Position numbers and translations under genes: made by a program. From Nitrospiria bacterium (GTDB lineage Bacteria > Nitrospirota > Nitrospiria > SBBL01 > JAADHI01), in assembly GCA_945787655.1 (NCBI GenBank), contig CALZIJ010000006.1, forward strand, positions 1 to 49,493: 49,493 nt of DNA, written 5' to 3'. Under the pieces are notes generated by a model. The model was not told where the DNA came from. It did no database searches and saw only the letters and a list, made by a program, of their open reading frames with translations. Positions 9,430 through 30,755 of this stretch are shown piece after piece; positions within the stretch are counted from its first letter, which is position 1; every line of letters starts with the position of its first letter.

Positions 9430-10347
9430 TTAATCGCCTTTGAAATAGGCGACCGTATTTTCTAATCCTTCCGAAAGGGAAACGCCTGGTTCCCAATCCA
9501 AAGCTTTGAAGATCTTTTTTGATTCGAGGCAGCTTCGCTTTTGCTCCCCCTTTTTTTCAGGGCCGTGAACTTCCTTCAATTCAGATTCCGTAATGCCGAG
9601 TAACAACTTAAACAGCTGATTCACGGTGGTTTCAACACCGGTTCCAATATTAAAAGTATCATTAATTTTATTATTCATAACCGCCATATTGGCTTCAACC
9701 ACATCTTTTACATAAACATAGTCGCGGGTCTGCATTCCATTTCCATTAATTGTCGGTTGTTCACCTTTTAAAAGCTTTTGTGTGAAAATGGCCACAACGC
9801 CAGCCTCGCCATGCGGGTCCTGACGCGGCCCATAAACATTTCCATACCTGAGGGAAGTGTATTCAAGTCCACAAACTTTTTGATAATAATACAAATAATG
9901 CTCACTCGATAATTTACTGACACCATAGGGTGAAAGGGGATGGGCTGGATGCGTTTCCGTCGCAGGAAATGTATTCTGCTCTCCATAAATGGCGCCGCCT
10001 GAGGAGGCAAATACAATACGCCGGGCGCCGTTTTTCACCGCGCACTCTAATAGGTTAATTAATCCCAGTATGTTGCTCTTTGCATCAAAGGCCGGATCTG
10101 TGACGGATTTTCTGACATCCATCTGCGCAGCGTGATGGTTAATCAATTCAGGTCTTTCCTTTTGAAAAATTTTTTCAAGGCGGCTGCTCTGGATATCACA
10201 TTTATAAAAAGTGGCCTCTTTATTAATGTTTTTCTTTTTCCCGGTAGACAGATCATCAACAATAACCACATCGTGACCTTCTTCTATTAATCGATCCACG
10301 ATATGGGAACCGATAAAACCCGCCCCGCCCGTCACTAAAATCTTCAT
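9430..10347 (-). CDS. NAD-dependent epimerase/dehydratase (UDP-glucose 4-epimerase-like)
   Basis: A 305-residue extended short-chain dehydrogenase. The N-terminus has the Rossmann dinucleotide motif TGGAGFIGSH, a Ser-Ser pair (ASSGG, about 115-119) and the catalytic YGVSK (Tyr141, Lys145). The later NIGTG and RPELINHHAAQ segments are those of nucleotide-sugar epimerases of the GalE/WbpP group. It would interconvert a UDP-hexose for surface polysaccharide; the exact sugar is not determinable. A GGAGG ribosome site lies eight bases before the ATG. It follows tlyA by 66 nt. Confidence 0.9.
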   Translation of the reverse strand: MKILVTGGAGFIGSHIVDRLIEEGHDVVIVDDLSTGKKKNINKEATFYKCDIQSSRLEKIFQKERPELINHHAAQMDVRKSVTDPAFDAKSNILGLINLLECAVKNGARRIVFASSGGAIYGEQNTFPATETHPAHPLSPYGVSKLSSEHYLYYYQKVCGLEYTSLRYGNVYGPRQDPHGEAGVVAIFTQKLLKGEQPTINGNGMQTRDYVYVKDVVEANMAVMNNKINDTFNIGTGVETTVNQLFKLLLGITESELKEVHGPEKKGEQKRSCLESKKIFKALDWEPGVSLSEGLENTVAYFKGD

Positions 10348-11216: not shown

Positions 11217-13181
11217 TCAAATAGCCTTCACCCGGGAAGGGGACACGCTGGTTTTTGTGATAAGGCCAGACTTATGGGCGGGGGTTTCAACAAACTCAAT
11301 AACACACGCAGAAATACTTTTGGGATCGAGTCCCAGGTCTTCTCTCAGGCGTTTCTGGCCGCCATGTTCAGTAAAGGCATCCGGAAGACCAATTTGTAAT
11401 ACATCAACAGGCCGGATCTTGCCCGCATTCTTTTTTTCTTCCAAAACCGAAAGGACGGATTCTCCAAAACCACCTGATAATACGTGTTCTTCCAGTGTGA
11501 CGATTTTATGGGTCTTTATTGCTACAGCACGCAACAGGTCATGATCTAAAGGTTTGGCAAAACGTGCATTCACGACGCCAGCCGTGATTCCCTGCTCTTT
11601 TAATTGCAAGGCCGCGGCCTGTGCAGGGTAAACCATACTCCCTAAAGCAATAAGCGCGACATCCCAACGGGGTTCTTCTTTACTCATGACGATCTCGGAC
11701 AAACCGACAGGAAGCGGTACAAGATTTTGATCAAGAGAAATGCCAACCCCAGCGCCGCGAGGGTAACGAATCGCAACCGGTTGATTCAGTTCAAGTGCAG
11801 TCGCCAACATATGCTGAAGTTCATTCTCATCCTTTGGGGCCATAAGAATCATATTCGGAACCCCCTTTAAATAGGCGATATCAAACACACCGGCATGCGT
11901 GGGTCCATCTTCTCCCACCAGGCCCGCCCGGTCCATACAAAACACAACAGGCAAGTTTTGAAGGGCAACATCATGAATAATCTGATCAAACCCGCGCTGT
12001 AAAAAAGTGGAATATATTGCAACCACAGGTCTCAGGCCGTCTGCCGCCATACCGGCCGCCATGGTAACGGCATGTTGTTCCGAAATCCCGACATCATAAA
12101 ACCGGTCAGGAAAGACCTCGGCAAATTGATTGAGCCCTGTCCCTGCCGGCATCGCAGCGGTAATGGCCACAATATCCTTATTTTTTTCGGAAAGTCGTAT
12201 TAATGTTTTTGAAAAAACCGAGGTATAGGAAGGAGGCGTTTTCCCCACTTTTTTCTTGGCTTTCCCCGTTGAAAGATCAAAAGCGGGTGTACCGTGGTAT
12301 GAGGCAGGATCAGACTCGGCCGGTGCGTACCCCTTTCCTTTTTTCGTCACGACGTGCAAAAGTATCGGGCCATCAAGGTCTTTGATATTATCAAAAGTCG
12401 TCAATAAATGATCCACGCGGTGTCCATCGATGGGTCCAAAATACTGAAAACCCAGCTCTTCAAAAAGTAAACCCGGTACAATCATCCCCTTGACGGATTC
12501 TTCCGCGCGGCGGGCCACTTCCAGCATAGGCTGACCTTTGTTCGGGATGTTTTTAAGTAAGGTTGCCGTTTCGCTCTTCACACGTGTATACAATTTCCCG
12601 GACAGAATCCGGTTGAGATAGGCAGAAAAAGCACCGACATTTTCTGAAATGGACATCTCATTGTCATTTAAGATGACAATAAAATTCCGTTTCAAATGCC
12701 CGGCATGATTTAAGGCTTCGTAGGCCATACCGGCAGTCAGCGAACCATCTCCAATAATCGCGATGACATAGTGATCTCCCCCTTTTTTCTCCCGTGCCTC
12801 AACCATGCCCAAGGCAGCGGAAATGGATGTGCCCGCATGCCCCGCACCGAAGGTATCGTATTCACTTTCTTTTCTGGAGAGAAATCCGCTGATCCCGCCA
12901 TATTGACGCAAGCTTGAAAAGTTATCCCGACGGCCGGTTAAAATTTTGTGCGGATATGCCTGATGTCCCGTGTCCCAAACAAGGCGGTCTTTTGGGGTAT
13001 CGAAACAGGCATGCAGTGCCAGCGTTAATTCGACCGTTCCCAAGCTGGCCCCAAGATGCCCACCCTTGTCGGAGACCGTTTTAAGAATCAGTTCCCGGAT
13101 TTCTTTCGCCAATGCCGGTAAATTTTTTCTGGGGACAGACTTCAAATCTTTCGGAGAATTAATACTTTCTAATAAAGACAT
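11217..13181 (-). CDS. dxs: 1-deoxy-D-xylulose-5-phosphate synthase
   Basis: A 654-residue thiamine-diphosphate enzyme that condenses pyruvate and glyceraldehyde 3-phosphate, the first step of the MEP isoprenoid pathway. The thiamine-binding GDG...ND signature is at 144-173, the substrate-site DTGHQAYPHK at 70-79 and the transketolase C-terminal region holds the conserved DRAGLVGEDGPTHAG. Length is normal, with a hydrophilic tail of about 15 residues. The ATG has AAGGA seven bases upstream. It sits 26 nt after ispA, giving the common xseB-ispA-dxs-tlyA order. Confidence 0.98.
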   Translation of the reverse strand: MSLLESINSPKDLKSVPRKNLPALAKEIRELILKTVSDKGGHLGASLGTVELTLALHACFDTPKDRLVWDTGHQAYPHKILTGRRDNFSSLRQYGGISGFLSRKESEYDTFGAGHAGTSISAALGMVEAREKKGGDHYVIAIIGDGSLTAGMAYEALNHAGHLKRNFIVILNDNEMSISENVGAFSAYLNRILSGKLYTRVKSETATLLKNIPNKGQPMLEVARRAEESVKGMIVPGLLFEELGFQYFGPIDGHRVDHLLTTFDNIKDLDGPILLHVVTKKGKGYAPAESDPASYHGTPAFDLSTGKAKKKVGKTPPSYTSVFSKTLIRLSEKNKDIVAITAAMPAGTGLNQFAEVFPDRFYDVGISEQHAVTMAAGMAADGLRPVVAIYSTFLQRGFDQIIHDVALQNLPVVFCMDRAGLVGEDGPTHAGVFDIAYLKGVPNMILMAPKDENELQHMLATALELNQPVAIRYPRGAGVGISLDQNLVPLPVGLSEIVMSKEEPRWDVALIALGSMVYPAQAAALQLKEQGITAGVVNARFAKPLDHDLLRAVAIKTHKIVTLEEHVLSGGFGESVLSVLEEKKNAGKIRPVDVLQIGLPDAFTEHGGQKRLREDLGLDPKSISACVIEFVETPAHKSGLITKTSVSPSRVKAI

Positions 13182-13207: not shown

Positions 13208-14110
13208 CTATTTCTCCCGATCGATTATAAAGGTTGCAATTCCACGTATAGGGTCCGCTTCCGGCCCCAATGTTTTGATATCCGATAAGGCCTCTTCAAC
13301 CAGAACCACCGCCTCTTTTTTGGCACGGGAAAGACCCATAAACGCCGGATAAGTCAATCTTCCCTTGGATTGATCCTGCCCCACGGGTTTTCCGAGTTTA
13401 TCCGTTTCACCTTCCACATCGAGGACATCATCGGCGATTTGAAAGGCCAATCCGATTTTTTCTCCAAATGCAGTCAAATTCGATAATTTCTTTGGACCGG
13501 CCCCACCTAGAATACCGCCTATTCGCACTGAGGCACGAATCAAGACACCGGTTTTATGAGTATGGATACGCTTTAATTTCTCCAACGAGAGATCCTCTTT
13601 TCCCTGTGCTTCAATGTCATTCAACTGGCCGCCGACCATGCCGGTACTTCCAGAGGCCGATCCGAGCTCCAAGATCACCCGCAACATTTTTTTTGGAGAA
13701 ATGCTTGCCGCCAACCCTTTCTCAGCCAGCATAGAAAAAGCCGCGGTTAAAAGCGCATCGCCGGCAAGAATGGCCGTACTTTCCCCAAACATCTTGTGAT
13801 TGGTCAGTTTCCCTCGACGATAGGTATCATCATCCATTGCCGGTAGGTCGTCATGAATGAGGGAATAGGTGTGAATGAGCTCAATGGCTGAAGCAAAGGG
13901 CAAAACGACTTCCTGCTGCCCTCCGACCGCCTCACAAGCGGCGATACAAAGAATAGGGCGTATGCGTTTACCTCCCGCGAAAAGGGAATAGCGCATGGCT
14001 TCGTGTAAAAGAGGCGGATCGCAGCTTGGGCTGGGTAAGTAGGACTTTAGTACCCGATCCACAGCAAAAGCCTGCTCCGATAAATATCTTTTTAAAGCCT
14101 CCCTATCCAC
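13208..14110 (-). CDS. ispA: farnesyl/geranyl diphosphate synthase (trans-isoprenyl)
   Basis: A 300-residue short-chain trans-prenyl transferase. The first Asp-rich motif DDLPAMDDD is at 87-95 and the second DDVLD at 227-231; GGKRIRP at 46-52 binds the diphosphate. It extends DMAPP/GPP with IPP in the cytosol, and its product feeds quinone side chains and undecaprenyl phosphate. The start is GTG (14110), with AGAGGA eight bases upstream, inside the end of xseB, so the two are translationally coupled. Confidence 0.96.
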   Translation of the reverse strand: MDREALKRYLSEQAFAVDRVLKSYLPSPSCDPPLLHEAMRYSLFAGGKRIRPILCIAACEAVGGQQEVVLPFASAIELIHTYSLIHDDLPAMDDDTYRRGKLTNHKMFGESTAILAGDALLTAAFSMLAEKGLAASISPKKMLRVILELGSASGSTGMVGGQLNDIEAQGKEDLSLEKLKRIHTHKTGVLIRASVRIGGILGGAGPKKLSNLTAFGEKIGLAFQIADDVLDVEGETDKLGKPVGQDQSKGRLTYPAFMGLSRAKKEAVVLVEEALSDIKTLGPEADPIRGIATFIIDREK

Positions 14111-14580: not shown

Positions 14581-15396
14581 CTAGGGAATTTGAGCACGCC
14601 TTAAAGCCCGCTCAGAGAACAATTGATCGTTTAGACCGATATTGACTTTTAAATCACTGACTTCAAAAATCGTTCTGTGCCCATTTTGAACATTGATGAC
14701 TTTAGTCTGCTTCCAAACACTCAATTGCTTGACTTGTTGCCATTGAATGGTTTGACGCTTCAACAGTTTCTCAGTACGATCATAATAATCAATCTTTAAA
14801 ACTGTCCAATCCTTTTTGGAAATCCACGATACTTTTTTGCTATAAATACTTTCATTTTCATTGGGTTGACTGACAATCACAAAACAGGGTATCCCGTTAT
14901 AGATTTCTTCCGAAAGCAAGTGATGTGTATCTTCATCAAGCCGACGCTGCCCCATGTCTCCGAATGTAAGATCAGATCCTAAAAAAGCATCATTAAGGTC
15001 CTGGCCGGAAATACGGCGAACCATTCTCAACGCCGGAAGATATAACCAAAGATCATCCGGCCGGTCTTTCTGTGCATAATCCCAAACCAGGAAAGCCACC
15101 CCGCGCGAATCTTCCGGAAAGCGGGTGACCAGCAACATCTTGCTGTCAATACCACCAATGCCGCGGTAGTTTTTCCATAAGCGGGAGGCCACGATGCGTT
15201 TCATGACTCCGTCCCGTTCAATCAGTTTAAGAGTAACGGTATTTTTTTGATCATCGGCACGATAAATCAGGGTTTTCGATTTCTTGATAATCTCTGTTGC
15301 GGATAAAACCTTGTTCTGAGCCCATCCGGTTTCTGGAAAGGACAGAAGACAGATTAGTAAAATACAACATCCAGCCGACAGCTTCTTCAAATCCAT
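14581..15396 (-). CDS. outer-membrane lipoprotein-sorting-like (LolA-like) protein
   Basis: A secreted protein of about 271 residues of the LolA-like 'outer membrane lipoprotein-sorting' family that often accompanies RND/MMPL exporters. After a signal peptide ending near TGWAQ it shows the family's strand pattern: FPEDSRGVAFLVWDYAQ, DDLWLYLPALRMVRRI, SDLTFGDM and, later, SKKDWTVLKIDYYDR. A GTG at 15414 is possible, but the ATG at 15396 has a GGAGGGGG site eight bases upstream. It stops with TAG. It lies 120 nt after the O-methyltransferase and is probably the end of the moaC-led run. A role in periplasmic lipid or lipoprotein carriage is likely but the cargo is unknown. Confidence 0.85.
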   Translation of the reverse strand: MDLKKLSAGCCILLICLLSFPETGWAQNKVLSATEIIKKSKTLIYRADDQKNTVTLKLIERDGVMKRIVASRLWKNYRGIGGIDSKMLLVTRFPEDSRGVAFLVWDYAQKDRPDDLWLYLPALRMVRRISGQDLNDAFLGSDLTFGDMGQRRLDEDTHHLLSEEIYNGIPCFVIVSQPNENESIYSKKVSWISKKDWTVLKIDYYDRTEKLLKRQTIQWQQVKQLSVWKQTKVINVQNGHRTIFEVSDLKVNIGLNDQLFSERALRRAQIP

Positions 15397-15516
15397 CTCA
15401 CTGGCCCCCTCCACGGTATTCCGACAGCGAGATAAAAACCACTCTCCCTAAAAAAGTAGTCGTACACCTTTATTTATATTCAGGATAAGACTGCCTCAAA
15501 ATTCGGCTAAAAACCC

Positions 15517-16605
15517 TTATTTTTTGGGCTTTTCTCCCATAATAACCACAAAAGGACTTGGTTCGGAAAGAGATATCGTCCGGACTTTTTTAAACCCCGT
15601 TTTGCTCATCCACTCCGACACTTCTTTTTCCGAGTACGCCGCGCCGCCAGGTGTATGAATGAGTTGATTCACACCGATCAAGGCGGAAAGGGCCGGGCCG
15701 GTTTTCTGCCGGTTCAGCATTTGATCCTGCACCAATACCTTTCCCCCCGGCTCCAATGCATTAAACGATTTTTTGAGGATCTTACCAATCACTTTGGGGG
15801 ATTCCTGGTTAAACATCGATGATAAAAGGACCGCATCATAACCTTTGCCAAAGGAGCTGTCAGTCAGATAGTTTCCGGGTTTTCGGTTAATCCGTTTTTC
15901 CAAACCAAACGAAGCTACAATTTCTGTTGTAATTTCAAGGGTTTGCGGTAAATCCAGTACCGTAGCCGACAAGTCTTTGTTTTTTTGACAAAACTTGACA
16001 TCAAAGGTACCGGGGCCACCCGCAACGTCCAAAAGATGCTTTCTGTCAGAAAAATCAATGTCTTTTGAAAGCAAATCCCCTTGCCCCAAAGCCCGGTAAT
16101 GCATACCGTAAATGTAATTTCGAAGCGCTTCCGCGCCCTGATCATGCGGTTTGTCCACCACGGGTTTTCCCGTGACCACGGCATCACACAAATCACCCCA
16201 GGCATCATACCAGCTATCGAACATTGAAACGATCCCCCCCTGAAACTTCTTGCTCCCCTTGACCAGGAAGGTATTGGACAGTCGATTATTCTTGTATTTT
16301 CCTCCGGTTTGATTTAACAAACCCAGCGACACGGCCGCCACCAGCAGAATTTCCAGACCCCGTTTATCCGCTTTACACCTATTCGCCAACTGAGTCACGG
16401 TTAAAGGCCCGTCTTTTAACAAGGTAAACACATCCAGGCGCACCACCGTGTGCAAGACTTTCGCCTGCCAATAAGAAGATGCAATTTGCATCACCTGCAT
16501 CGGGTCCAAGGCATTGCTGGATGGCGCCGTTTTTTTGTTGATGGATTTTGCGGTTTTCACCACTTTTTTAACGGCTTTTTTTGCCGTTTTCACCGTTTTT
16601 TTCAT
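15517..16605 (-). CDS. SAM-dependent O-methyltransferase (plant-OMT/AcsM type) with a Lys/Ala-rich N-terminal tail
   Basis: A 362-residue methyltransferase of the methyltransf_2 family. Residues 35-120 form the winged-helix dimerisation domain (AKVLHTVVRLDVFTLL...), then comes the SAM site LLDVAGGPGTFDV and, near the C-terminus, LEPGGKVLVQDQML. Relatives methylate hydroxyls of polyketides, carotenoids or tetrapyrroles; the substrate is unknown. The first 30 residues are a Lys/Ala/Val repeat (KKTVKTAKKAVKKVVKTAKS) resembling histone-H1-like tails and unusual for the family. An AGGAG site five bases before the ATG supports the tail being translated. It starts 9 nt after the phosphatase gene. 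Confidence 0.88.
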   Translation of the reverse strand: MKKTVKTAKKAVKKVVKTAKSINKKTAPSSNALDPMQVMQIASSYWQAKVLHTVVRLDVFTLLKDGPLTVTQLANRCKADKRGLEILLVAAVSLGLLNQTGGKYKNNRLSNTFLVKGSKKFQGGIVSMFDSWYDAWGDLCDAVVTGKPVVDKPHDQGAEALRNYIYGMHYRALGQGDLLSKDIDFSDRKHLLDVAGGPGTFDVKFCQKNKDLSATVLDLPQTLEITTEIVASFGLEKRINRKPGNYLTDSSFGKGYDAVLLSSMFNQESPKVIGKILKKSFNALEPGGKVLVQDQMLNRQKTGPALSALIGVNQLIHTPGGAAYSEKEVSEWMSKTGFKKVRTISLSEPSPFVVIMGEKPKK

Positions 16606-16614
16606 CTCATCTCC

Positions 16615-17256
16615 TCATGTACAATCCTTGGGGTAAAAAGAAAAAGCATGCAGATTAGGCCAGCGATCCGTATATTCTATTTTGGTAATCGAAGCATGAC
16701 GAATCACCAAGCGCTTAAAATGGATTAAAGGCATTTCAAGCGCATGCGCTACAATCATCCGAATCGACCCGGCGTGAGTCACGACCAGCACAGTTTCACC
16801 AATATGTTTTGACACCAGAGTGGCGATGCCCTCGTTAACACGTCTTGAAAATACCTTGAGTGACTCTGCGCCTTCCGGTGTAAAATGGGCCATATCTTTA
16901 CGCCAGGCGGCCCATTCTGCGGGGTATTTCATTTTAACTTCTTTGCTGCTCAATCCTCCCCAACGGCCAAACCGCCATTCCTGTAATGCCTCCATGGTCA
17001 CCCTTTGGGCTTCCAATTTTTCTGTTGCGATTTGTGCGGTTTCCTGAGTCCTTCTAGAAGGACTCACATAAATACCGGCAATCGCTTGTTCATATTTTTC
17101 TAAAAAAGAAGTCCAGGCTCCGGCTTGATTTCGACCCAAAGGATTCAATGCAGGGTCTTCGAGGGCATCGTCATAAAACCGGTCTTTCGGGTAATCCGTT
17201 TGGCCATGACGCAACAAAAGGAGTGTTGTTGATTTCCTTTCAGAATCGGTGTGCAT
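16615..17256 (-). CDS. histidine phosphatase family protein (phosphoglycerate mutase-like)
   Basis: A 213-residue member of the histidine phosphatase superfamily. The phospho-acceptor motif LLRHGQTD is at 14-21 (His17), a conserved Arg lies in SPSRRTQETA, the acid in EALQEWRFG and the second His in VVTHAGS. It resembles the broad-specificity GpmB/CobC group; no specific substrate can be named. It begins 4 nt after the ABC permease stop and 9 nt before the O-methyltransferase, so it is part of the same operon. Confidence 0.9.
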   Translation of the reverse strand: MHTDSERKSTTLLLLRHGQTDYPKDRFYDDALEDPALNPLGRNQAGAWTSFLEKYEQAIAGIYVSPSRRTQETAQIATEKLEAQRVTMEALQEWRFGRWGGLSSKEVKMKYPAEWAAWRKDMAHFTPEGAESLKVFSRRVNEGIATLVSKHIGETVLVVTHAGSIRMIVAHALEMPLIHFKRLVIRHASITKIEYTDRWPNLHAFSFYPKDCT

Positions 17257-17260
17257 CCGA

Positions 17261-18022
17261 TTATTCCACCCGTTGAAAAGTCGTTATGGCCGCAATAACG
17301 GAAATCAACGCAAAAACCGTGAGAAAACCCAAACCTATCCAAAATGGCTGTTGAAACACGCCGTGATAACAAGCCCGGACGGCCTCGACACCATAAGTCA
17401 CCGGGTTGGCCCGGCTAACGATCTGCATCCACTTCGGCATAAAAGCGGCGGGCACCAACGCGGAAGAAAAAAAGAGCAGAGGCAGGGTCAACATATTTCC
17501 CATCACAACGAGCGGCTCTTCCTGTTTTAAAAACATGGCCAGGGCATTGGAGATGGCCGAAAACCCCACCGCCAACAATAGGACGACCACCCACACCCAG
17601 AAAACCCCTTGCCCTTTTGGAAAACCCGCACCGATGACAGCAGCCACTGCGATCAATAAAAAAACCTGGATGACCACCGTGAATCCATTGTGCAGCAAGC
17701 GGCTTAATACAATCGAGGAGCGCACGATGGGGGCAACGAGCATTTTTTCCATCACGCCATGTCGTAGATCACGCAGGAGACTGACACCCGACCACGATGC
17801 GCCAAACAACACCGTCATCACGATCACACCAGGGGCAAGAAACTGAACATAATCCCCTTCCGGAAATTGGGGGAGTTGGGACAAACCCTTGAACAACTGT
17901 CCAAAAATAACCAGCCAAAGCAGGGGTTGAATCAAGCCGAAAAACGTCCACATCGGCATACGCCATGTGAGTTTTAAGTATTTAAAAAAAAGATACCGTG
18001 TATCGGAAATAAAATTCAGCAT
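17261..18022 (-). CDS. ABC-2 type transporter permease
   Basis: A 253-residue inner-membrane permease with six predicted membrane spans and the ABC-2 signature in the last third (LTLPLLFFSSALVPAAFMP...NPVTYGVEAVRA), as in DrrB/NodJ-type exporters. A TTG at 18028 extends the frame by two codons, but the ATG at 18022 is the normal choice. It follows the ATPase gene by about 8 nt and would pair with it to export a lipid, polysaccharide or drug-like molecule. Confidence 0.95.
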   Translation of the reverse strand: MLNFISDTRYLFFKYLKLTWRMPMWTFFGLIQPLLWLVIFGQLFKGLSQLPQFPEGDYVQFLAPGVIVMTVLFGASWSGVSLLRDLRHGVMEKMLVAPIVRSSIVLSRLLHNGFTVVIQVFLLIAVAAVIGAGFPKGQGVFWVWVVVLLLAVGFSAISNALAMFLKQEEPLVVMGNMLTLPLLFFSSALVPAAFMPKWMQIVSRANPVTYGVEAVRACYHGVFQQPFWIGLGFLTVFALISVIAAITTFQRVE

Positions 18023-18030
18023 TGACAAGT

Positions 18031-19563
18031 CTACTCTTTTTGATCTTTCGTGGAGGCATCCTGACTTTTCTCAGAAAGGTCATCTTTTGGCCACTCACTC
18101 TGGGGTTGTTCACCGCCTTCGGACCAATTTTGTCCGGAACCGCTTTTTTTATCCGACGACCAATTTGAATCGGCCTGACCGCCCCATTTCTTCCAGGGTT
18201 CTTCTGAATCAGCTTCTGCTTTTGCAGGGGCGTCCTCCGATTTGGCAACCTTTTTCTCCGGCTTTTCCTCTACAGGTTCACGGCTCTCTTCTGAAGACCA
18301 TTCCGAGTTTGCCTGATCACCCCATTTTTTCCAGGCCGGCTCACTCGAATCCGCCGTCCGAGAATCTTCAGTGTGTTCTTTTTCGGGGTCAGGCGAATGC
18401 TTTGTGTCGGCCTCTTGTTGATCGGAAACAGCCTTAGGGTCATGATCTCCCTTAGACCACTGGGCCGCTCCCTGCCCTGCCCATTTTTTCCAATCCTGAT
18501 TACCTTCTGATTCGGGACCTTCAACCCATTCCGATTTGGACGATCCCGCTTTATCCGCCCATTTTTTGGCCCACTTATTATTTTTGGAACCACCCCAGCC
18601 GCCCCAATCCTCTTCGGCCGCCTCATCGGCAAGCAACCAATTTTTTCCGGTATATTTTAAATAAACATCATCAAAAGTGGGGCGTGCCAGTAATACTGAT
18701 TTGGCTGATAGATTGAGTGAATCGACCCACTGGATGACCTTTGGAAGCAATTGCTGTCCATTTTCCAGATAAAGTCGAATGGCTTCTCCCTGTTGAATCA
18801 CTTCCTTAAACCAGTCCTTATTCCTGAAAGCCGCCAGTGTCTCTTCCGTAATCGGCTCATCAAAGGTGAGATGAATCGCATCCTGCCCCAAACTGTCTTT
18901 CAATTGGTCCGGTGTGCCAACGATGCGGATTTGTCCGCCATCTAATATCCCCACCCTGTTGGCCAGTTGATCGACTTCATCCAAATAATGTGTCGTCAAA
19001 AAAAGCGTCATGCCTTCGTCACGGTTAAGACCGCGCAGATATGCCCACAAATCAGCGCGGCTTTTTGGGTCCAGTCCAATGGTCGGCTCATCCAGAAAAA
19101 GTAGTTTCGGCTCGTGGATCAAGGCCGTCGCAATGTCAAGACGGCGCTTCAAGCCCCCGGAGAGAGACCCCACCCACTGTCCTTCCCGCCCGGTCATGTC
19201 GAAGAGTTGAAGCAGGGTTTTGATTCGCTCCTCAATCTTTTTTTTGGGAAGATGGTAAAGGCGGCCCTGAAGCAGCATGTTCTCCAAAACCGTCAACGCC
19301 GGATCAACCCCACTCTGCTGGCCGACATACCCAAATGACATGCGTACGGCCAATGGATCTTCAAGAACATCGTGGCCGGCAACGGTTACCGTTCCGGAGG
19401 TCGGACGAAGCAGGGTCGTTAAAATTTTGATTGTAGTGGTCTTCCCGGCCCCGTTGGGTCCGAGAAAACCAAAAACTTCGCCCGCTTCGACATGTAAAGA
19501 AATGTCGTTGACCGCGCGAATTCCTGCATCAAATTCTTTTATCAGATGATCAATCTGGATCAT
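18031..19563 (-). CDS. ABC exporter ATPase (DrrA-type) with a 200-residue Trp-rich repeat tail
   Basis: Residues 1-305 form a normal DrrA-like ATPase: Walker A GPNGAGKT (35-42), Q-loop GYVGQQ, signature LSGGLKRR (134-141), Walker B LLFLDEP (154-160) and H-loop TTHYLD. Family members usually end near 310-330. Here a hydrophilic extension (311-510) carries 16 tryptophans, many Lys/Glu/Ser and tandem copies of WKKWxxQxxxxW (358-369, 411-422, 457-468), plus two degenerate copies (320-346). The frame is continuous and ends with TAG. The start overlaps the moaC stop (ATGA). The tail is presumably cytoplasmic. Its function is unknown. Confidence 0.95.
18034..18633 (-). repeat. coding region of tandem WKKW repeats in the ABC ATPase tail
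   Basis: Three well-kept copies of the 12-residue pattern WKKWxxQxxxxW start at residues 358, 411 and 457 (spacings 53 and 46 residues). Degenerate copies lie at 320-331, 331-346 and 475-491. At the DNA level the copies share recognisable blocks but are not identical, so the array is not brand new. Confidence 0.85.
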
Positions 19564-20063
19564 GGAAGGGGCTCAGGACGTGTGTATGTCCCTGATTTAC
19601 CGCCACTTTTTTTAAGCAACCCGATTTTGCCAAAACTGATGCCCTTGTCGATTGCCTTGCACATATCATAAATCGTCAAAGCAGCCACACTGACGGCCGT
19701 GACAGCCTCCATTTCGACTCCTGTCTGGCCTGATGTCTTGGCGGTTCCGGCAATTTCGATTGCGGCAATACCTTGGGCATTGGTCGGGATAACTTCAAAC
19801 TGAATATCCACACTTGTTATGAGGAGCGGGTGACACATTGGAATTAAATCCGGGGTTTTCTTGGCGCCCATCACGCCTGCCACCTGGGCCACGGCCAGGA
19901 CATCCCCTTTCGCTATCTGGCCTTCTTCAATCCGTTTTAGTGTTTCCGGTTTCATGTACACCGTGCCTGTTGCTGTGGCTTCCCGGTGGGTATCTTTTTT
20001 GCCGGAAACATCGACCATTCTGGCGCGGCCTTCCTGGTTAAAATGAGTCAACTCATCAGTCAT
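19560..20063 (-). CDS. moaC: cyclic pyranopterin monophosphate synthase
   Basis: A 167-residue MoaC. It converts the MoaA product to cyclic pyranopterin monophosphate in molybdenum-cofactor synthesis. The conserved [27 protein letters not shown] and [11 protein letters not shown] segments are all present and the length is typical. GGAGGAAAAAT precedes the ATG. No other moa gene is nearby; it leads a run of ABC exporter, phosphatase and methyltransferase genes and overlaps the ABC ATPase start by 4 nt. Confidence 0.97.
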
Positions 20064-22365: not shown

Positions 22366-25050
22366 ATGAAGCCATTTGTCGAAAAAATAGTTCGTTTTCC
22401 GAAACTTGTGATCCTTTCAATTCTTCTGATCACACTCTTTTTTCTGTCACAAATCTTCAGCATTGAATTAAAATTTGACCCCAAAGCCATCCTGCCCCAG
22501 GACGATCCCATCGTTCAGCGGAACAACAAAATTGAAGAAACCTTTGGCGGAAGCCGGGTCGTGGTCATTGGCGTACACAACAAAAACGGGGATATCTTCA
22601 ACCCTGAAACCCTGAAAAAAATTAAAACCATCAACGACGAAGTCAAACTCATCTCCGGCGTCAAGGAAGAAAATGTCGTCAGTATTGCCGACCGGAAAAT
22701 CAAACACATCGTCGGAACCGAGGGCGAAATCGACATCACCCAACTGATGCCCGAAGTCCCCACCACCACTGAAGATCTGTCTGAACTCAAAAAACGTGTT
22801 TTTTCAAATGAACTCCTCTTAGATGGACTCGTTTCAAGGGACGGCTCCGCTGCTGCCATTGTCCTGGACTTTGCCCAGAATGTGCCGAAGGAAACCTTCA
22901 CCGGTTCGGATCTTCCGGAAGGCGCTTTTGAAACATTTCCCGGTGACGAAGGCGATTTTTCCGCACCGGATCAATCCATGTCGGGCCAGGAGGAGTTCTG
23001 GGATGGAAACAAGGCAGATAACCCCAACACCAATTTTCAAGGCGATTTTCAAAAAGAAGGAAATAACCCGGAAGAAAGTGTGGAAGATGAGCCGGCCTGG
23101 AAAAAATGGCAGAAAAAATCCGAAGGGGAAGAAGCGTCTGACGGGGGAGAAAAAAGCTGGCAACAGTGGCAGGCCCAATCAGGCTCAAGCTGTAGTGACT
23201 GGCAAGTCAGCGGCCCCGGGGAAGCCCTGCGGGATTCCTACATCCACTGCCAAATTCAGGATATCATCAAAAAACAGATGGACGACAACCATGCCTTTTA
23301 TGTGGGCGGCATGCCCGTCGTCCTCACCTATTTTGAATCGGACGCCTGGCAAATGCTCGTCATCCTCTTCCCGCTGGCCGTGCTTATTATCGGCATTTTG
23401 CATTACATGGCCTTTAAAACCTGGCAAGGCCTGGTCATCCCGCTGGTGACTTCCCTGTTGGCCGTGGCCTGGGCCATGGGCATCATGGGCGTGACCGGCA
23501 CCCCCCTGGACCCCTGGAACGCCATGACCCCGATTCTGATCCTGGCCATCGCGGCAGGCCACTCCGTTCAGATTTTAAAACGCTACTATGAAGAATACGA
23601 GCGATTGGGTGATAACAAGGCGGCGGTGATCGAGTCCACCTCCCAAGTCGGACTGGCGATGATTACCGCCGGACTGATTGCCTCGGCCAGCTTCGCATCA
23701 CTGATTACCTTTAAGTTAGGGACTTTTCAAGCCTTTGGACTATTTACGGCCTTCGGTATTTTAAGCGCGCTCTTTCTGGAATTGACCTTTATTCCGGCCT
23801 TGCGCTCCGTACTCAAACCGTCTAAAAAATTAAAGAAAAAACCCAGCGGACCCGACTTGCTCGACCGCTTCCTGACGCGGCTAGCGATAACCATTAATGA
23901 CCCTTCGGGGCGTAAAAAAATACTGATCGGCGGCGTGCTCTTTTTTATCGTTTCGATCATGGGCGCCATGATGATGCAAGTCAGCAACAGCAACCGTTCC
24001 CAGTTTTTTGAAAGTACAGACCTTAGAAAAGACGACAAAGCCTTGAATGAAAAATTTGGCGGGACATCCACCTTCTATGTATTACTCGAAGAAACCCAAA
24101 AAGGCGCGCTGAAAACACCTGAAGTGGCCAATGCGATTGACCGCTTGCAACGCCGGCTCGAAACCGTCGAATCGGTCGGAAAAACCGAATCCTATGTCGA
24201 TTACATGAAACAAATGAACCAAACCATGAAGGGCGGCGATCCATCGATGCTGCGTGTCCCGGAGTCCAAAGAAGAAATCGGGCAGTTTCTCTTCCTGTAT
24301 TCCATCTCCGGAAATCCGGCCGACTTTTCCCGGCTGATGCGGCCACAACAGGACGAGGCGATTATCTGGGTTTTTATGAGAACGGACGATACACAGCTCG
24401 CTGAACAGTTGATCCAAATCGTTGAGGAAGCCAAGGCCACTGATTTTAATGCACTGAACGTCGATATCGGGGTCGCGGGCAGCACGCCCGTCGTGGTTGC
24501 GCTCAACCGGGAAATGGTCCGGGGCAAGGCCCAAAACATGTTACAAATCGCCGCAATCACTTTTTTGATGACTGCATTTTTCAGAAGATCTCTTTTAGGC
24601 GGTCTTTTTGTGATTATCCCCCTGGCGCTTTCGGTTTTGATTAATTTTGGCGTGATGGGTTTTGCCGGGATTCACCTCGGCATCGGCACTGCCGCCATCT
24701 CTGCGATGGCCGTGGGCATCGGGGCCGATTACGAAATTTATCTTATTTTCCGGCTGCGGGAAGAAATCCGAAAAGGCGGGAACGTCGCCGAGGCCGTCCG
24801 CACTACACTGCTCACTTCAGGAAAAGCCATTATCTTTGTCGCCCTTGCGGTCTCTTGCGGTTACGGTATGCTGGCCTTCACGGGTTATTATCTTCACATG
24901 GAAGGGATTCTGGTTCCGTTGGCCATGCTCACCAGTTGTCTCGGCGCCTTGGCCATTCTGCCGAGCCTGGTGCTTGTGTTTAAGCCCAAGTTTGTTTTTG
25001 GCGGGATTCCAATGAGCACACCGCAACCCGAATCGTCCATTTCACGCTAA
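22366..25050 (+). CDS. RND/MMPL-family exporter with a Trp-rich acidic insertion in the first periplasmic loop
   Basis: An 894-residue MMPL/RND transporter (HpnN/YdfJ-like two-half layout). There is one helix at 14-34, a large loop to about 327, a block of five helices, a second loop (about 545-720) and a second helix block. The GADYEIYL segment in TM10 and its counterpart near 400 (AAGHSVQIL) are the proton-relay-type positions. Between about 174 and 285 an acidic insertion carries FPGDEGDF/FQGDF repeats, then EPAWKKW (243-248), SWQQWQAQ (264-271) and SCSDW. This is the motif seen in the nearby ABC ATPase tail. The family exports lipids or hydrophobic compounds; the cargo here is unknown. 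The start has no clear Shine-Dalgarno. Confidence 0.92.
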   Translation: MKPFVEKIVRFPKLVILSILLITLFFLSQIFSIELKFDPKAILPQDDPIVQRNNKIEETFGGSRVVVIGVHNKNGDIFNPETLKKIKTINDEVKLISGVKEENVVSIADRKIKHIVGTEGEIDITQLMPEVPTTTEDLSELKKRVFSNELLLDGLVSRDGSAAAIVLDFAQNVPKETFTGSDLPEGAFETFPGDEGDFSAPDQSMSGQEEFWDGNKADNPNTNFQGDFQKEGNNPEESVEDEPAWKKWQKKSEGEEASDGGEKSWQQWQAQSGSSCSDWQVSGPGEALRDSYIHCQIQDIIKKQMDDNHAFYVGGMPVVLTYFESDAWQMLVILFPLAVLIIGILHYMAFKTWQGLVIPLVTSLLAVAWAMGIMGVTGTPLDPWNAMTPILILAIAAGHSVQILKRYYEEYERLGDNKAAVIESTSQVGLAMITAGLIASASFASLITFKLGTFQAFGLFTAFGILSALFLELTFIPALRSVLKPSKKLKKKPSGPDLLDRFLTRLAITINDPSGRKKILIGGVLFFIVSIMGAMMMQVSNSNRSQFFESTDLRKDDKALNEKFGGTSTFYVLLEETQKGALKTPEVANAIDRLQRRLETVESVGKTESYVDYMKQMNQTMKGGDPSMLRVPESKEEIGQFLFLYSISGNPADFSRLMRPQQDEAIIWVFMRTDDTQLAEQLIQIVEEAKATDFNALNVDIGVAGSTPVVVALNREMVRGKAQNMLQIAAITFLMTAFFRRSLLGGLFVIIPLALSVLINFGVMGFAGIHLGIGTAAISAMAVGIGADYEIYLIFRLREEIRKGGNVAEAVRTTLLTSGKAIIFVALAVSCGYGMLAFTGYYLHMEGILVPLAMLTSCLGALAILPSLVLVFKPKFVFGGIPMSTPQPESSISR

Positions 25051-29888: not shown

Positions 29889-30755
29889 TCATGTGTAATA
29901 ATTGAAAATCAAGCCCGCTAAAACAAGGACCCCCACCCAAACATTAGACCGAAATAAATAAAAAAGGGTCTCCCTGGGTAAATCCTTCCTTAACTTGAAT
30001 GACTGAAAAACAAAGAACAAGGTAATCCCGCCGATGGCGGCATAGTAAACACCTGATAATTGGGCAAAACGCCCCACCAGCGCCAGAAAGAAAACAACCA
30101 GGAAATAAAAGCCGCCCACGGCCACCCAGCTTTTTTCTCCAAACAAAATCGCCGTTGATTTTACTCCAATTTTTTTATCATCCTCCCGATCCATTAGGGC
30201 ATAGATGGTATCGTATCCCGCGGCCCAGCAAAGATTGGCCAAAAGGATTAAAAATGGAATCACGGAAAGACTGTTTCGAACTGCGGCCCAAGCCAGGATA
30301 ATGCCCCAGCTAAAGGCAACGCCCAGCACTATTTGAGGTAAATAAGTTACCCGTTTTGCAAATGGATAAATGATGGCACAAAAAAGGGCAGAAAAGCTTA
30401 ACAAAAAAGCATAACGATTGAGCATTAAGACAGTCACCAGCGCACAGGTCAAAAAAATGGCTAAAACAACCAGGGCTTCTTTCAGGGTCAAATCTTTATT
30501 GGCCAGGGGGCGATCCTTCGTTCGATCCACTTTGGCGTCAAAACGGTGATCTGCCATATCATTCATGACGCAGCCCGCACTTCTCATAAAAAAAGAGCCC
30601 AATATAAAAATAACAACATGGGAAAAACTCGGCTTGCCTTCAGAAGCGACAATTAAAGACCAGAGCGTTGGGAAAAGTAATAATAAGGTGCCGTATTGTT
30701 TATCAAGACGAATGAGGCGTGCCACAGCCTCCCGTTTTTCCCATAAAAAGACCAT
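29889..30755 (-). CDS. ubiA: 4-hydroxybenzoate polyprenyltransferase (UbiA family)
   Basis: A 288-residue integral membrane prenyltransferase with about eight spans. It has the two Asp-rich motifs of UbiA: NDMADHRFD (65-73) with DRTKDRPLA, and DREDDKKIGVKST later. It attaches a polyprenyl chain to 4-hydroxybenzoate. Close relatives act in other quinone routes, but the presence of a chorismate lyase in the same operon supports this substrate. It starts 2 nt after the FGE-like gene and ends the operon. Confidence 0.92.
   Translation of the reverse strand: MVFLWEKREAVARLIRLDKQYGTLLLLFPTLWSLIVASEGKPSFSHVVIFILGSFFMRSAGCVMNDMADHRFDAKVDRTKDRPLANKDLTLKEALVVLAIFLTCALVTVLMLNRYAFLLSFSALFCAIIYPFAKRVTYLPQIVLGVAFSWGIILAWAAVRNSLSVIPFLILLANLCWAAGYDTIYALMDREDDKKIGVKSTAILFGEKSWVAVGGFYFLVVFFLALVGRFAQLSGVYYAAIGGITLFFVFQSFKLRKDLPRETLFYLFRSNVWVGVLVLAGLIFNYYT

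Follow-up and report, generated by a model that had tools for sequence, protein, structure and literature searches.

MmpL3 and MmpL4/MmpL5 are mycobacterial exporters of the RND/MMPL type that carry lipids and siderophores, and the hopanoid transporter HpnN and the sterol transporter BstA also have the RND architecture. DrrA and DrrB form the daunorubicin-type ABC-2 exporter. The aryl polyene cluster of E. coli encodes a LolA-like protein (ApeL), an RND protein (ApeM), a LolB-like protein (ApeN) and a SAM methyltransferase, and its product is delivered to the outer membrane (PMC8253772). At the level of peptides, short WXXW sequences reversibly bind doxorubicin through stacked Trp residues (PMC13415283).

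Here we describe a locus in a window of 49,493 nucleotides (the whole stretch of DNA analysed) from a Nitrospiria bacterium, in which an ABC exporter ATPase and an RND pump carry the same W-K-K-W motif. The window falls within Nitrospirota, close to Candidatus Manganitrophaceae. The overall fold of the RND pump resembles that of the MmpL exporters, and the best Foldseek matches of its model are MmpL4/5 (truncated MmpL4: E=8e-24, TM-score 0.63 on the query and 0.77 on the target). In both, the periplasmic domain can carry an insert, which is a coiled coil in the MmpL4/5 entries but disordered and Trp-rich in our pump, and the identity is about 14%. Unlike MmpL, the pump is encoded in a Gram-negative operon together with an ABC exporter and a LolA-like carrier. 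HpnN and BstA match the pump in sequence, and HpnN also in structure, but the scores fall well short of the curated cut-offs (84 of 752 bits for the HpnN equivalog, 38 of 1400 bits for BstA). The ATPase passes the drrA cut-off and its permease is DrrB-like but under the drrB cut-off; the ATPase differs from DrrA in a Trp-rich tail of 203 residues beyond the DrrA domain. The operon shares an RND pump, a LolA-like carrier and a methyltransferase with the aryl polyene cluster, but differs from it in having an ABC-2 exporter. No aryl polyene ketosynthases or ACPs were recognised by eye at 13–32 kb of the window or in the relatives' clusters. The synthetic WXXW drug-binding peptides (Popkov type) have the i,i+3 Trp pair seen here; since they are designed, the analogy is functional only.

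The RND pump and its insert

The MMPL/RND transporter (HAE3-like, 894 residues) is encoded at 22366–25050 on the plus strand. The PF03176 profile matches it in two stretches covering both halves (E=4e-42, 145 bits against a cut-off of 20.5), while the HAE3 profile TIGR00921 gives E=2e-71 and 241 bits, below the subfamily cut-off of 352. The AlphaFold2 model (pLDDT 75, pTM 0.70) has the RND fold, with two periplasmic domains and two membrane-helix bundles.

In the first periplasmic domain, residues 174–285 (22885–23220, plus strand) form an acidic, Trp-rich and disordered insert. The pLDDT is below 50 at residues 177–272, between a strand (162–169) and a helix (290–304). The translation agrees with the first-pass annotation, which had described these residues as an acidic insertion with EPAWKKW, SWQQWQAQ and SCSDW, and the first of these reads on as EPAWKKWQ. 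The WKKW motif spans W245–W248 (23098–23109) and is followed by Q249, and a short helix predicted at residues 244–250 coincides with WKKWQ. The second W-x-x-W, WQQW, spans W265–W268 (23158–23169). At the end of the insert, C276 and C295 (23191–23250) are both present in 10/10 RND orthologues of families f1 and f5, while the domain lacks cysteine in the 18 other loci examined. The pair is likely to form a disulfide, as expected in the periplasm. The insert lies between membrane helices 1 and 2, in a domain that is periplasmic in RND pumps, and should therefore be periplasmic itself.

The ABC ATPase and its tail

The DrrA-type ABC-2 exporter ATPase (510 residues; 18031–19563, minus strand) was recognised by PF00005 and by TIGR01188 (drrA), which it matches with 320 bits, above the subfamily cut-off of 312. 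Its paired ABC-2 permease (DrrB-like; PF01061, E=6e-35) lies directly downstream at 17261–18028, on the minus strand, and this pairing is kept in relatives. The AlphaFold2 prediction of the ATPase had a pLDDT of 34 and was left unused.

After the conserved LKYTGK begins the charged, Trp-rich C-terminal tail, residues 308–510 (18034–18642, minus strand). Comparison of orthologues revealed a first motif, WAKKW (W331–W335, 18559–18573), which is followed by three WKKW copies at 18481–18492, at 18322–18333 within EPAWKKW, and at 18184–18195 near the C-terminus; the three read WKKWGDQ, WKKWAGQ and WKKWGGQ. W331, W335 and W361 are found without exception in the 17 orthologues compared. The first-pass annotation had noticed the motif in an ATPase tail 3 kb away from the pump; there are in fact three copies, 4.6–4.9 kb distant, with 2.8 kb between the genes. 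The form it proposed, WKKWxxQ, holds for the ABC protein, but that of the RND protein is WKKWQ. Among the orthologues, the motif reads EExW-K-K-W-Q in the insert (Q in 19/20) and EE(P/D)W-K-K-W-(G/Q) in the tail. By family membership the tail is cytosolic, and the difference in compartment that was pointed out at the outset is real as far as the sequence can tell.

A conserved operon

The gene order MoaC, ABC ATPase, permease, histidine phosphatase, O-methyltransferase, LolA-like protein and RND pump is kept across families. In the window, the run starts with a MoaC-like gene (19560–20063; named from its sequence appearance) and, beyond the ATPase and permease, continues with a histidine phosphatase (16615–17256, PF00300), an O-methyltransferase (15517–16605, PF00891) and a LolA-like/DUF1329 periplasmic carrier (14581–15414; PF17131, E=5e-54, and PF07044), all on the minus strand and assigned to the operon by synteny. 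The genus of the window has its RND gene beyond MoaC and DUF481, opposite the rest of the run. As in the DUF1302-DUF1329-MMPL envelope module, the LolA/DUF1329 carrier is a direct neighbour of the RND gene in f5, in f11 and in L198. A DUF1302 protein stands between the LolA-like and RND genes in families f7 and f9 (L206, L207 and L211), and none was identified beside the RND gene in the window.

The ABC ATPase and the RND pump thus belong to one old operon and one export system, which answers the surprise that the two carriers of the motif are unrelated proteins: they are unrelated in fold, but not in context. The region is flanked by a polyprenyl-synthase-like gene (13208–14110, minus strand) and a UbiA-like prenyltransferase gene (29889–30755, minus strand), both named from sequence appearance, and the cargo may therefore be prenylated or quinone-like.

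Conservation of the tail and the insert

Orthologues in seven families, as far as examined, all keep both the ATPase tail and the RND insert. Five of these families (f1, f5, f7, f9 and f11) belong to the window's class, and there, among the orthologues examined, no ATPase is without the tail and no RND protein without a Trp-bearing insert. The insert is missing from the RND paralogues (second RND), and the open frames of the Nitrospira-type ABC proteins are without the long tail. Among 296 Nitrospirota genomes, the tailed ABC protein occurs in 21 and the RND orthologue in 18/21 of these, a raw co-occurrence that largely reflects common descent. The count of 18 is a lower bound, as at least one of the three ABC-only genomes (G081) has a linked RND-type frame with AYAQEDWKKWQ. 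One further RND match among the 296 genomes resembles the paralogue.

The RND loops of f9 and f11 contain tryptophans (NPWWNPD, PEDWASESW) but not WKKW, and the pump therefore does not depend on the strict motif. A second motif, W[ST]xxEMxxWW, is found in both proteins: in the RND inserts of f15, as EWSQKEMDEWWAKQGG, and in ABC tails of f22 and f9, as WSPEEMKEWW or WTEAEMKEWW. Families f15 and f22 are outside the window's class. Searched as a DNA pattern, this motif has 12 matches in the 296 genomes, 9/12 of them inside ABC or RND genes.

Three further features were observed in these loci. An A-x-A-[QE] stretch, such as SSAYAQEDWKKWQ or IPVAQAQEWSQ, precedes the Trp motif of the f15/f22 RND inserts in 10/10 loci (L212–L216, L218–L220, L240 and L243); it resembles a site for signal peptidase I, here located midway along the pump loop, and is missing in the window's own family. 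The RND gene of G004 (L195:10734-13344) consists of two overlapping ORFs with a frameshift after the first periplasmic domain, possibly an assembly error. At L124:14628, on the plus strand, a 94-residue open frame of RWGWGRSWGWGRSW repeats is probably an antisense or spurious frame.

Specificity of the motif

The WKKW codon pattern has 21 matches in the genome, three in the ABC gene and one in the RND gene, and only these four lie in a Trp-rich acidic setting. Two of the others are in ordinary proteins, an NADH-dehydrogenase-like protein (PTWKKW) and a probable amidohydrolase, and the remaining ones are in short or spurious frames. The genome search suggested with the original observation thus confined the Trp-rich acidic copies to two transporters. 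Since about 17 WKKW codon places exist elsewhere in the genome, the coincidence could in principle have arisen by chance, but conservation over seven families, exclusivity and the spacing of the Trp residues (below) refute this explanation, which we regard as next to negligible. The motif is neither scattered over unrelated proteins nor absent from the relatives of both carriers, the two outcomes that would have spoken against its significance.

Across the 296 genomes, WKKWQ occurs at 63 places, and the contexts were read at 30 loci. A third carrier was sought there and rejected: these loci are ABC tails, RND inserts, a conserved NADH-dehydrogenase-like site (FPVWKKWQVAQ), singles inside ordinary folded proteins, and chance frames. 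A literature search for Trp-rich disordered ABC tails returned no match.

The composition was examined in the same way. The open frames of 1.95 Mb, which is 64% of the genome, were all scanned for segments of 40 residues that contain three or more Trp and few other hydrophobic residues. By reading of the matches, only two genuine proteins have such segments, the ATPase in its tail and the RND pump in its insert. The remaining matches are ORFs that are short or seem to be in the wrong frame (the one in L166 is long) and one ordinary folded domain (L092). Scanning of the relatives' clusters picked out the same two genes again. A genome-wide Trp-rich composition is thus ruled out for the sampled 64%.

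Trp makes up 8.9% of the ATPase tails and 6.2% of the RND inserts of the orthologues. Pairs with W(i,i+3) spacing number 31 in the tails against 15.4 expected, and 20 in the inserts against 4.7 expected, values that 0/2000 shuffles reached in either case; because the sequences are related by descent, these figures describe a pattern and not independent events. The commonest W-x-x-W is WKKW in both segments. Beyond composition and Trp spacing, the likeness of tail and loop is weak (z>=2 in 3/15 genomes, one of them inflated by a repeat). This weak likeness, together with the free variation in the lengths of tail and insert and the tolerance of dispersed repeats, is what would be expected of generic low-complexity linkers that drifted to a W/K/E/G composition and have no function in common. 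However, this composition recurs in no further protein of the 64% of the genome that was scanned, a Trp content of 6–9% with i,i+3 spacing is non-random, and three tryptophans of the tail are invariant, so that we consider mere drift improbable.

Trp and Lys favour the membrane interface, and W(i,i+3) spacing places the two tryptophans on one helical face. The W-K-K-W motifs might therefore lie at the lipid head groups and hold the tail and the loop to the inner membrane, without any specific partner. The strongly acidic flanks would disfavour anionic membranes, however, and restriction to two proteins of one operon is not obviously expected of an interface anchor; we view this explanation as rather unlikely, though less so than drift.

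DNA similarity between the two genes

A 22-nt stretch of the ATPase gene that includes EPAWKKW (18322–18343, minus strand) is identical to positions 23088–23109 of the RND gene. This identity was matched by 1/200 synonymous shuffles, but it is the best case out of the 15 genomes tested. In family f9, a GC-rich dispersed repeat of about 72 nt, which ends in GGGGGCGACGCAAGCCCCT, occurs in the ABC tail, in the RND gene and elsewhere in the loci (L207:2248-2319, 9882-9953 and 11649-11720; L210:9215-9286; L211:14382-14453).

Both observations could point to gene conversion or to a mobile repeat that copies the motif between the neighbouring genes, and movement of the motif was one of the explanations first put forward. 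In permutation tests of within- against between-genome similarity of tail and loop, however, the protein sequences gave no within-genome excess (p = 0.61), and the DNA value of p = 0.02 is largely due to the f9 repeat and the single 22-nt identity in the window. Moreover, the f9 repeat does not encode WKKW, and in most genomes the shared stretch is only 9–13 nt, the same as in synonymous shuffles. These results largely refute gene conversion or concerted evolution as the general cause, which we hold to be very improbable; mobility is at most an occasional side process.

A possible shared cargo

That only two carriers were found among the proteins checked suggests that both grip the same cargo or partner. 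The first-pass annotation had proposed a partner shared across the compartments. Co-conservation fits this proposal, as the two segments belong to one operon, are carried together and exclusively among these proteins, and contain two motif types in common. The putative partner could be a cargo or the membrane instead of a protein.

One way to account for the motifs is as docking elements for components of the machine, or as stickers that cluster the ABC and RND proteins at one membrane site, each acting from its own side. Short conserved motifs in long disordered acidic spacers, in several copies in the ABC tail, would suit such a role, as would the predicted short helix at WKKWQ of the RND protein and the fact that the two proteins are operon partners. 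Nevertheless, one soluble protein cannot bind segments in different compartments, and the clusters scanned contained no third Trp-rich partner. Docking or clustering is thus possible but doubtful, and we rank it above interface anchoring.

We favour, ahead of both, a tentative reading to which we assign a probability of about 0.35, in which one and the same cargo, hydrophobic or aromatic, is bound by the tail on the cytosolic side and by the loop on the periplasmic side. From the paired tryptophans, one helical turn apart, we infer a transient aromatic clamp. The operon would encode an old Nitrospirota export route with two pumps, composed of the DrrAB-type ABC exporter, the RND/MMPL pump, the LolA/DUF1329-like carrier and the O-methyltransferase, which a DUF1302 protein would join in some families. 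On the cytosolic side, the tail of the ATPase would collect cargo close to the ABC-2 exporter; in the periplasm, the loop of the RND protein would capture it and make it available to the pump and the LolA-like carrier. This removes the paradox of the compartments, because a cargo, in contrast to a soluble protein partner, is encountered in both compartments. We prefer a cargo clamp because of the binding of doxorubicin by WXXW peptides, the DrrA-type ATPase and the likeness to the aryl polyene genes. Against it, the designed WXXW peptides are not homologues of the tail or the insert, WKKW is missing from the f9 and f11 RND loops, in most genomes tail and loop, compared over their full length, show no significant likeness beyond composition and Trp spacing, and the co-occurrence is mostly due to common descent. 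The more specific proposal, that WKKW is a cargo-specific linear motif on both sides of the inner membrane and that the disordered segments act in the handover of one aromatic or lipid product from the ABC exporter to the RND pump, is unlikely on present evidence, slightly more so than docking.

It is unusual for a linear motif to be common to two transporters that are unrelated and face different compartments. The operon is also present in relatives of the manganese-oxidising Candidatus Manganitrophus; a literature search for Manganitrophus with ABC and RND transporters returned no match. Should the motif bind a cargo common to both proteins, it would illustrate how an ABC exporter on the cytosolic side and an RND pump facing the periplasm can operate in series, and it would provide a sequence tag for the product of this conserved Nitrospirota operon.
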